Origin: Chloroflexota bacterium
Lineage (GTDB): Bacteria; Chloroflexota; Limnocylindria; P2-11E
Length of the DNA: 41,702 nt
Direction of reading: 5' to 3'
Assembly: GCA_005880575.1 (NCBI GenBank)
Contig: VBIZ01000105.1
Location: 1-41,702 of the forward strand
Part shown: positions 14,566 to 17,787 of the stretch, piece after piece
Numbering within the stretch: position 1 is the first letter of the stretch
Layout: the number at the start of each line of letters is the position of its first letter
Notes under the pieces: generated by a model
The model's input: the letters and a program-made list of their open reading frames with translations, nothing else
Databases searched by the model: none
What the model was told of the DNA's origin: nothing
Made by a program: the position numbers and the translations under genes

Positions 14566-14973
14566 TCAATTCGTGCGGCGGCCCTGTTGCTGCTGCTGCA
14601 TCTGGACGATCGCGACGGGTAGACCCCCAATCGAGCTGCCATCCACCTCGAGGTCGAACTTATGTGTCCCGTAGCTCGTGAAGCTCATGTTGTTGAGCTC
14701 GACGATCACGTTGACGTCCTGGCCGGCGACGGCGTGCACCGAGATCTCGGGCGGGTTGGGCATGGCTTGCTGCCCGTCCGGGCGCAGGAGCCGCACCTTC
14801 ACGGTGTGCGCGCCGACCTCGAGTCCCAGGATCGCCACGACGAACATTCGCGGGTGCTGCGCCGGCAGCCCGCTCACGGAGATATTGCGGAAGATGCCCA
14901 TGAGGCTGACCTTGCCGTCCTGCCCGACGAGGGCGTGGTCGCACAGGGCCGCAAGGCGGATCTCGGCGCTCAC
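14566..14973 (-). CDS. Conserved hypothetical protein (DUF6941-like)
   Basis: MSAEIRLAALCDHALVGQDGKVSLMGIFRNI...; beta-rich; family name recalled, not searched. Confidence 0.65.
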   Translation of the reverse strand: MSAEIRLAALCDHALVGQDGKVSLMGIFRNISVSGLPAQHPRMFVVAILGLEVGAHTVKVRLLRPDGQQAMPNPPEISVHAVAGQDVNVIVELNNMSFTSYGTHKFDLEVDGSSIGGLPVAIVQMQQQQQGRRTN

Positions 14974-17408
14974 GAGCGGCGCCGCGTCACGAAGTTCACC
15001 AAACGGTCGGGCACGAAGATCGTCCGCTCCGGGTCGCGGCCGTGAAGCGCGGCTTTCACTTTCGGACTAGCCATCGCGAGCTCCTCGGCGGCCGGCTGCG
15101 AGATACCAGCGGCCGCGTTGATGCGGTCGCGTACCTTTCCATCGATCTGGACCACGAGGGTCACCTCTTTCGCCGCGGCAATCGCCGGATCGAACGTCGG
15201 CCAGCCCTCGCGATGGATCGAGCTCCGTCCGCCGCGCAGCTCCCAGAGCTCCTCGGTCATATAGGGTGCGAACGGCGCCAGGAGCAGGAGCAACGTTGCC
15301 ACGCCCTCGTCGCGGCTCGGACCCGTTGCATGCTGAAGGGCGTTCGAAAGCTCCATCATCGCGGCGACCGCCGTGTTGAACGAGTAGGTCTGCAGGTCGT
15401 CGGTGACCTTCGCGATCGTGCGGTGCACAACGCGGTCCACGTCTGGATCGCGCCGGCCGGGCGGCTCCGCCTCGGATTGGGCCATCTCCCAGACACGGCG
15501 CAGGAACCGATGCACGCCCTCGATGCCGGAGGCGTCCCAGTCCGCGCCGTCCACCCACGGACCCATGAACATCATGAAGAGCCGCAGCGTGTCGGCCCCG
15601 TATTTCTCGACATACGCGTCGGGAGTCTCGACGTTCCCGCGAGACTTCGACATCTTGCGGCCCTTGAACACGATCGTCCCCTGGTAGCGGAAGCGCAGCG
15701 CCGGCTCATCGAACCACAGCTCGCCGATATCTCGGAGGGCCTTGGCCATGAAGCGCATGTAGAGCAGGTGCAGAATCGCGTGCTCGACTCCACCGGTGTA
15801 TTGCTGGACCGGCAGCCATTTCCTGCCGAGCTCCTTGTTCATGAACCCCTTGTCGTATTTGGGATCGACGTAGCGGTACATGTACCAGGACGAATCGACG
15901 AACGTGTCCATCGTGTCGGTGTCGCGGCGGGCGGGTCCTCCGCACTTCGGGCACGTCGTTTCCACGAAGGACGCGACGTGGGTCAGCGGTGAGCCGCGTC
16001 GTCCGGTGAACTCGACGTCCCGCGGCAGCACGACCGGGAGCTGGTCGTAGGGGACCGGCACGACGCCGCAGGTGTCGCAGTAGACGATGGGGATCGGGGT
16101 GCCCCAGTACCGCTGGCGAGAGATGAGCCAGTCGCGCAACCGATAGGTCACCGCGGGCCCGCCGATGCCACGCTTCTTGGCCTCGGCAGCGATCGCGCCC
16201 TTTCCCGCCGCGCTCGGCATTCCGCTGAACGGGCCGCTCCGCACCAGGACCCCCTCGCCGACGTAGGGCGCATCGAGCGCGGCGTGCTCGGCACCATCGG
16301 GGCTGATGACCTCGCGAATCTCCAGGCGGTGCTTCTTCGCGAACGCGAAGTCGCGCTCGTCGTGTCCGGGAACGGCCATGATCGCGCCGGTACCGTACGT
16401 CGCGAGCACGTAGTCGGCCACCCAGATCGGGATGCGCTCGCCCGTGAACACATTGCGCGCGAACGCTCCGGTGTCGACGCCGGTCTTCTCGCGCTCCGCC
16501 GAGGCGCGCTCGATCTCGCTCATGTTTCGCGCGTGCTGAACGTACCGCTCGACCTCGGCGCGGTGCTTCGGTGCGCCGATCTTCTCCACGAGCGGGTGCT
16601 CAGGGGCGAGGACCATAAAGGTGGCGCCGTAGATCGTGTCCGGACGCGTCGTGAAGAAGCGGATCTCCTCGCCGGGATGGCCCTCGACCGGGAACGCCAA
16701 CTCCGCGCCTTCCGAGCGGCCGATCCAGTTGGTCTGGAGCACGCGCACGCGCTCCGGCCAGTCCAATCCCTCGAAGCGCAGCAGCTCGTCGGCGTACTTG
16801 GTGATCCGGTAGAACCACTGGGTCATCTGTCGCTTGACGACCGGCGTGTCGCAACGCTCGCACCGTCCATTGATGACCTGCTCGTTGGCCAGCACTGTCT
16901 CGTCGCGCGGGCACCAGTTGACCGGCGCATCCGCGCGATAGGCGAGGCCTCTTTCGTAGAGCTTCAGGAACATCCACTGATTCCAGCGGTAGTACTCCGG
17001 ATAGCACGTGACCACCTCGCGCCGCCAATCGATCGCCGCGCCCATGCGATTGAACTGCTCGCGCATGTGCGCCATGTTCTTCTCGGTCCAGACGGCCGGA
17101 TGGATCTGCCGGTCGATCGCCGCGTTCTCCGCGTTGATCCCGAAAGCGTCGAAGCCCATCGGGAAAAGCACGTTGTAGCCGCGCATCCGTAGGAAGCGCG
17201 CGGCGGCGTCTGGCGGAGCGAAGGCGTACCAGTGACCGACATGGATGTCACCCGATGGGTACGGAAACATCGTCAGGAAGTAGAAATTCGGCCGGTCTGC
17301 CACGTCCGGGGTGTTGTGGAGGCCCGACGAGGCCCAGCGCTCGCGCCATTTCTCTTCGATGGCGGCGGGCGTGTAGCGATCGATCTTCTTCTGCACTTCG
17401 CTCGTCAC
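14970..17408 (-). CDS. leuS: Leucyl-tRNA synthetase
   Basis: FPYPSGDIHVGHW (HIGH region), GRKMSKSRGN (KMSKS), editing domain, anticodon-binding C-terminus; GTG start. Confidence 0.98.
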   Translation of the reverse strand: MTSEVQKKIDRYTPAAIEEKWRERWASSGLHNTPDVADRPNFYFLTMFPYPSGDIHVGHWYAFAPPDAAARFLRMRGYNVLFPMGFDAFGINAENAAIDRQIHPAVWTEKNMAHMREQFNRMGAAIDWRREVVTCYPEYYRWNQWMFLKLYERGLAYRADAPVNWCPRDETVLANEQVINGRCERCDTPVVKRQMTQWFYRITKYADELLRFEGLDWPERVRVLQTNWIGRSEGAELAFPVEGHPGEEIRFFTTRPDTIYGATFMVLAPEHPLVEKIGAPKHRAEVERYVQHARNMSEIERASAEREKTGVDTGAFARNVFTGERIPIWVADYVLATYGTGAIMAVPGHDERDFAFAKKHRLEIREVISPDGAEHAALDAPYVGEGVLVRSGPFSGMPSAAGKGAIAAEAKKRGIGGPAVTYRLRDWLISRQRYWGTPIPIVYCDTCGVVPVPYDQLPVVLPRDVEFTGRRGSPLTHVASFVETTCPKCGGPARRDTDTMDTFVDSSWYMYRYVDPKYDKGFMNKELGRKWLPVQQYTGGVEHAILHLLYMRFMAKALRDIGELWFDEPALRFRYQGTIVFKGRKMSKSRGNVETPDAYVEKYGADTLRLFMMFMGPWVDGADWDASGIEGVHRFLRRVWEMAQSEAEPPGRRDPDVDRVVHRTIAKVTDDLQTYSFNTAVAAMMELSNALQHATGPSRDEGVATLLLLLAPFAPYMTEELWELRGGRSSIHREGWPTFDPAIAAAKEVTLVVQIDGKVRDRINAAAGISQPAAEELAMASPKVKAALHGRDPERTIFVPDRLVNFVTRRRS

Positions 17409-17422
17409 GTCGACCTCCTTTC

Positions 17423-17485
17423 AAAAACAAAAGGCCCTTCGTCCGCGCTTGCGCGCTCAGGGAACCATGCCCCTGGGGACGAAAG
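17423..17485 (-). terminator. Rho-independent terminator of the leuS T-box leader
   Basis: Reverse strand CTTTCGTCC ... GGACGAAGG pairing, then GCC-TTTTGTTTTT; overlaps the antiterminator 3' arm GTCCCC. Confidence 0.85.
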
Positions 17486-17522
17486 ACCTCCGTGGTACCA
17501 CCCCACTTGAGAGCCGCTGTTC

Positions 17523-17597
17523 TGGTGGAGCTGGCGGGATTCGAACCCGCGACCCCCACACTGCCAGTGTGATGCGCTCCCACTGCGCCACAGCCCC
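17523..17597 (-). tRNA. tRNA-Ala(GGC), 3' CCA encoded
   Basis: GGGGCTGTGGCGCAGTGGGAGCGCATCACACTGGCAGTGTGGGGGTCGCGGGTTCGAATCCCGCCAGCTCCACCA: 7-bp acceptor with G3:U70, 4-bp D stem, anticodon loop CTGGCAG, T-loop TTCGAAT. Confidence 0.97.
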
Positions 17598-17781
17598 GAC
17601 GCTCTCCGCTCGAGCACGTTGATAACGGGCGTGACCCCGGCGGAAGTTAGCGCCTAAGCGGTTCGCTCCCGCGGCTCCCGGGCGAGTTCCGCGCTCCTAC
17701 GACACCGGCTCGCACCAGCCGCCGGCTCTCTTGGGTCGTGGGGATGCGCGTACTGCTCCCGTTCGTGGCCGTTCGCCGAAA

Positions 17782-17787
17782 AGTATA
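17782..17787 (-). promoter_or_regulatory. Candidate -10 element for the T-box/tRNA/leuS transcript
   Basis: TATACT on reverse strand between the rodA stop (17795) and Stem I; no convincing -35. Confidence 0.35.

Follow-up and report, generated by a model that had tools for sequence, protein, structure and literature searches.

A leucine T-box leader with a tRNA gene inside it

The window analysed here, a stretch of 41,702 nucleotides (positions 1 to 41,702 of contig VBIZ01000105.1, Chloroflexota assembly GCA_005880575.1), carries on its minus strand a leucyl-tRNA synthetase gene, leuS, preceded by a T-box leader within which lies a gene for tRNA-Ala(GGC) (Table 1). The N-terminal part of leuS matches leuS of Chloroflexota and Bacillota genomes at 45–77% identity. 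An earlier note, made from the sequence without database searches, had described a leuS T-box in which the tRNA takes the place of the Stem III loop. On re-reading of the sequence all of its element coordinates were exact, and the structural claims held up: in an Rfam search the leader matches the T-box covariance model RF00230 from end to end, Stem I included; the RF00230 alignment itself puts 86 inserted bases in the Stem III loop; and the 6-bp arms GAGAGC and GCTCTC are perfectly paired. The insert is a complete tRNA by both ARAGORN and Rfam, with all of its arms, the anticodon GGC and an RF00005 score of 66 bits against a gathering cut-off of 29.

Table 1. Features of the leuS leader and gene, in positions of the window
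Feature	Position	Strand	Basis
Probable -10 element TATACT	17782–17787	-	Sequence; just 5′ of the leader
T-box leader of leuS, whole RF00230 model (1–219)	17472–17775	-	90.5 bits, E 1.5e-20
Specifier codon CTC (Leu) of Stem I, in specifier loop GGAACTCG	17684–17686	-	Sequence and RF00230 alignment
GAGCG, RRRxG purine motif, 5′ of Stem III	17607–17611	-	Sequence; motif definition PMC7583486
Stem III 5′ arm GAGAGC	17601–17606	-	Sequence; covarying arms
tRNA-Ala(GGC) gene, CCA encoded, as Stem III loop	17523–17597	-	ARAGORN, RF00005
Stem III 3′ arm GCTCTC	17509–17514	-	Sequence; RF00230 alignment; covarying arms
Conserved AA after Stem III 3′ arm	17507–17508	-	Sequence
T-box sequence and antiterminator bulge (AAGTGGGGTGGTACCACGG)	17490–17508	-	Sequence; RF00230 alignment
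Intrinsic terminator hairpin and U tract	17423–17491	-	Fold; stem approximately 17491–17430
leuS, leucyl-tRNA synthetase, GTG start at 17408	14970–17408	-	

The leader shares with the ordinary RF00230 T-box a CUC specifier in Stem I, Stem II, the IIA/B motif CCGTTA, the series RRRxG–Stem III–AA, a bulge reading UGGU (TGGT in the DNA) that fits the UGGN requirement, the antiterminator and terminator, and leuS downstream. CCCGTTATC, listed after the specifier loop and before the Stem III 5′ arm, was also confirmed. RRRxG–Stem III–AA is the motif of the aminoacylation-sensing discriminator (PMC7583486), and this discriminator is intact around the tRNA, in the order GAGCG-GAGAGC-(tRNA)-GCTCTC-AA. 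The leader departs from an ordinary T-box in having a whole tRNA gene as its Stem III loop, and one for a different amino acid: the fold encodes tRNA-Ala, whereas the tRNA that it would bind in trans is tRNA-Leu.

The terminator stem folds at -44.9 kcal/mol (z -2.4) and competes with the antiterminator; a simple terminator scan missed it because its branched loop exceeds the loop limit of that scan. Single-sequence folding of the whole leader (z -1.5) did not recover the T-box fold, a failure that is usual for GC-rich leaders. No separate promoter was seen in the gap of only 14 nt between the tRNA and the T-box sequence. Instead, most leaders of the family keep TATACT or a near match 5′ of Stem I, at about the same distance; a promoter scan found nothing, this putative promoter not fitting its simple consensus, and no -35 consensus was present.

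The embedded tRNA-Ala is, apparently, a working gene. The host genome is a 2.7 Mb draft in 212 contigs, 80.5% complete, and when all 37 of its tRNA matches were collected and typed by anticodon, tRNA-Ala(GGC) was present among them in a single copy, at the leuS leader. A second candidate GGC match turned out on typing to be tRNA-Gly(GCC). The genome also encodes tRNA-Leu(GAG), complementary to the CTC specifier, and has five T-boxes, of which the leuS leader alone carries a tRNA. GCC and GCT account for 169 of the 381 Ala codons in six genes of the window, and with these codons so frequent tRNA-Ala(GGC) must be in heavy demand. Judging from the sequence, a single transcript apparently serves leuS as a gene switch and at the same time yields an essential tRNA.

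The tRNA genes of the host genome are mostly without an encoded CCA, yet keep C74; tRNA-Ala(GGC) and tRNA-Glu(CTC) are the only genes with a full encoded CCA among those whose 3′ end was typed.

The nested arrangement is conserved within the family and recurs in several phyla

Comparison of leuS leaders among relatives, which the earlier note had proposed, found the tRNA kept at the same position in several phyla and, close to home, in all but one of the 29 genomes examined from the family (28, host included) and the order (one), with tRNA-Ala(GGC) inside the T-box before leuS in each of those that have it; for G027 the arrangement was recognised by reading the sequence. In the exception, G025, a 70% complete draft, no T-box of the nested kind and no tRNA-Ala(GGC) was found. 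The nested state also occurs in f4, a second family of the class, where tRNA-Ala(GGC) has clearly diverged and some members have an extra gene between T-box and leuS. In a third family (f3) the tRNA still stands before leuS and the T-box was not detected; one leader of this kind, L096, has TATACT 5′ of the tRNA and a plain terminator 3′ of it. That f3 keeps the tRNA after the T-box has gone argues that the tRNA is under selection of its own, and its single copy in the host genome and in most relatives points the same way.

Four leaders (L026, L032, L043 and L091) have an extra hairpin insert of about 70–100 nt between the tRNA and the Stem III 3′ arm. These inserts share the motif GCCGC..GAGGACGAGYGAYG, which is also found elsewhere in G014 and 5′ of the leader in G023 and may, given these other sites, be a small dispersed repeat.

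Beyond the class we searched with a pattern of a tRNA T-arm followed within 24–54 bases by the T-box core. It occurs in 53 of the 399 genomes of the phylum Chloroflexota, and a scan of 85,462 species genomes returned at least 120 stretches; a backward control pattern, run as a control for chance, gave few matches. Among the first 80 of these stretches listed, 74 have tRNA-Ala(GGC) exactly in place, with leuS downstream in nearly all where the contig reaches. With all loci pooled, the distinct nested leuS loci number at least 150, about 155 by the full count. Chloroflexota hosts include Thermomicrobia and Ktedonobacteria, Bacillota hosts include Desulfotruncus, Desulfovirgula, Orenia, Symbiobacterium and Thermaerobacter, and the nested form is also present in a few contigs of Coprothermobacterota, Caldisericota and Armatimonadota. 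In examples from these host groups, Rfam finds complete T-boxes around the tRNA at 46–142 bits, and in those from the two main phyla the full model scores 70–142 bits.

The specifier is CTC in 125–131 of 153 nested leaders, and among the nested loci found the embedded tRNA is essentially always tRNA-Ala(GGC) and the operon always that of leuS. Genes identified by eye lie between T-box and leuS at some of them, an AMP-binding synthetase-like gene in Desulfotruncus and an ilvE-like gene in some others. No other tRNA species was found in these T-boxes except for one tRNA-Ala(CGC), at locus L168 (3592 region), where it lies beside the T-box core and the downstream gene is ilvE-like, followed by leuS. 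Copy number was counted among the matches with a GGC anticodon loop listed for 48 genomes of the phylum and a further 12. Most of these genomes have a single copy, several of Ktedonobacteria type have two, and those with a sole copy include near-complete genomes as well as Desulfotruncus, Desulfovirgula and Orenia.

Some matches were set aside. Three from Exiguobacterium and one from Oribacterium have no tRNA, and their nearest downstream ORFs are, by eye, tyrosyl-/phenylalanyl-tRNA synthetase-like; L111, with tRNA-Pro and tRNA-Gly, has no T-box at E 0.001. In many Chloroflexota, at L105, L106, L122, L123, L124, L126, L135, L144 and other loci, a second tRNA gene, tRNA-Ala(CGC), lies about 250–440 nt upstream, just 5′ of Stem I, in the gene order tRNA-Ala(CGC), T-box containing tRNA-Ala(GGC), leuS.

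The locus could in principle be a decayed leader, an option that the earlier note had raised, or a tRNA pseudogene or assembly artefact. In keeping with this, the leader scores 2.5 bits below the RF00230 gathering cut-off of 93 and the host genome is a draft in many contigs. Ordinary T-boxes in these genomes score 45–108 bits against that same cut-off, and relatives with the same layout lie above it, at 108 and 142 bits. Against decay stands the deep conservation of the arrangement among relatives and in many independent genomes, including isolates (Desulfotruncus, Dictyobacter and Tengunoibacter) and multi-megabase contigs, and its presence at about 150 other leuS loci excludes chance and assembly artefact. 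We regard this explanation as having next to no chance of being correct.

The arms of Stem III covary

In 142 leaders we tested the arm chosen by an RRRxG-type motif for pairing to the arm that precedes AA. Six or all of seven base pairs formed in 78% of these leaders, as opposed to 16% with arms swapped between leaders; related sequences inflate these figures, and many independent compensations remain. The leaders hold 85 distinct arm pairs. Median values are 8 bp for the Stem III helix, 5 nt from its 5′ arm to the tRNA 5′ end and 8 nt from the tRNA to its 3′ arm. Taken across these sequences, the arms closing on the tRNA covary.

States around leuS and their history

Five states are found around leuS: nested, tRNAs ahead of the T-box, tRNA only, T-box only, and neither. 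At L325, L328 and L336, tRNA-Ala(CGC) and tRNA-Ala(GGC) precede a complete, uninterrupted T-box before leuS, possibly an intermediate or a rearranged state. tRNA-Ala(GGC) stands directly before leuS with no detectable T-box at L093–L097 (f3), L329 (f5) and, in Bacillota, L289 and L293. A tree of leuS largely separates the two main phyla, and the nested state is present throughout both. We infer an old linkage of tRNA-Ala(GGC) to leuS and an early nesting, followed by piecemeal loss with some transfer, the direction of change being part of this inference. Judged by its distribution, the nested arrangement is ancient and specific.

The same history may be read as an accident in which the nesting has no function of its own: a leuS T-box would have interleaved on one occasion with a tRNA-Ala–leuS pair, and the result would since have been merely tolerated and passed on. 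The separate states, with the tRNA before a complete T-box, the tRNA alone or the T-box alone, speak for such a history, and in the leuS tree, which for the most part tracks phylum, the state changes many times (29 changes on 114 rows). It sits less easily with the survival of the arrangement over several phyla with covarying arms, which indicates purifying selection on both parts, an argument that fits two merely compatible functions equally well. We think an accident of this kind a serious possibility, albeit one that we would not favour.

Proposed mode of action: a constitutive tRNA within a conditional leader

The sequence points, with good though incomplete confidence, to a leucine-specific, transcription-terminating T-box that hosts a functional tRNA-Ala(GGC) gene as its Stem III loop, such that the tRNA would be constitutive and leuS gated. 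One promoter 5′ of Stem I would transcribe the tRNA and leuS as a unit. Since the tRNA precedes the terminator, every round of transcription would make tRNA-Ala, terminated or not, and RNase P and 3′ nucleases would release it from the leader. Read-through into leuS would require uncharged tRNA-Leu(GAG), paired with both the specifier and the bulge of the T-box. Stem III would hold the tRNA clear of the discriminator fold, and may keep the two leader halves joined during, and even after, cleavage. The T-box terminator would end the tRNA transcript as well, and by attenuation a promoter of tRNA strength could drive a synthetase gene at a low level. Supply of the tRNA and gating of leuS most likely follow from the sequence together with established T-box and tRNA biology.

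In a further reading the tRNA would itself be part of the switch, since a cut by RNase P or RNase Z would split the decoding domain from the antiterminator: leuS read-through would hang on a race of tRNA processing against transcription, or the cut leader would work as two RNAs held together by Stem III. The order of decoding half, tRNA and discriminator is kept in about 155 leuS loci of several phyla, although a position 5′ of Stem I is open to the tRNA and used in three genomes; and the covarying arms close at the RNase P site, a median of 5 nt away. Pairing of the leader with the 3′ RCCA slows RNase P (PMC9433436), and Stem III could slow cleavage in a comparable manner; RNase P might cut ahead of the read-through decision, later than it, or with no effect on it. 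The same phyla nevertheless contain T-box leaders without the tRNA and tRNA–leuS pairs without a T-box, so that neither needs the other, and we consider it rather unlikely that the tRNA is part of the switch. Its fullest form, a two-piece riboswitch in which tRNA-Ala is excised during transcription, Stem III joins the halves and tRNA maturation sets the timing of leucine sensing or is coupled to it, seems to us similarly doubtful.

The embedded tRNA might also act in cis, its acceptor end ACCA pairing with the T-box bulge UGGU in place of a free tRNA, and a consensus fold does pair CCACC at the tRNA end with GGUGG of the T-box. Such pairing would break the acceptor stem, though, and CCA is not encoded in 74 of the 153 embedded genes; C74 is equally conserved in other tRNAs of the host genome and of related loci. 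With about half of the genes lacking CCA and C74 in no way special, we rejected a pairing in cis between acceptor end and bulge, and cis mimicry is very improbable.

Relation to known systems and significance

The preferred reading, a gated synthetase gene whose leader also supplies a tRNA, has partial parallels. In Escherichia coli, tRNA genes are co-transcribed with protein genes in metY-nusA and thrU-tufB. As in those operons, the tRNA would be cut from an mRNA-bearing transcript; their tRNA stands beside the regulatory element, whereas here it is inside the riboswitch fold, before the terminator. Ribosomal spacer tRNAs, with tRNA-Ala or tRNA-Ile between 16S and 23S rRNA, are likewise nested in a longer structured transcript whose flanks pair around the tRNA, but involve no riboswitch and no conditional termination. 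T-box leaders with unexplained insertions in Stem III or other domains have been noted (PMC7583486); those share the site, in the discriminator domain, and differ in not being described as tRNA genes.

The earlier note had also taken the arrangement to be novel. This stands for the open literature, in which we found no earlier description of a tRNA gene in a T-box, T-box reviews and database papers included; two older surveys (Vitreschak 2008; Gutierrez-Preciado 2009) lie beyond that search. The leader thus belongs to the T-box and tRNA families at once, a combination that is new as far as the open literature shows.

Software that masks tRNAs ahead of a riboswitch search, or that filters by the Rfam gathering score, can miss the whole class. 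The nested riboswitch is a natural test of the separability of the decoding and discriminator domains of the T-box; it is equally one of whether cleavage by RNase P precedes the antitermination decision. Since in these bacteria the leader that controls leuS in response to leucine would also supply the tRNA for the GCC and GCU alanine codons, its deletion or targeting would affect alanine decoding too.
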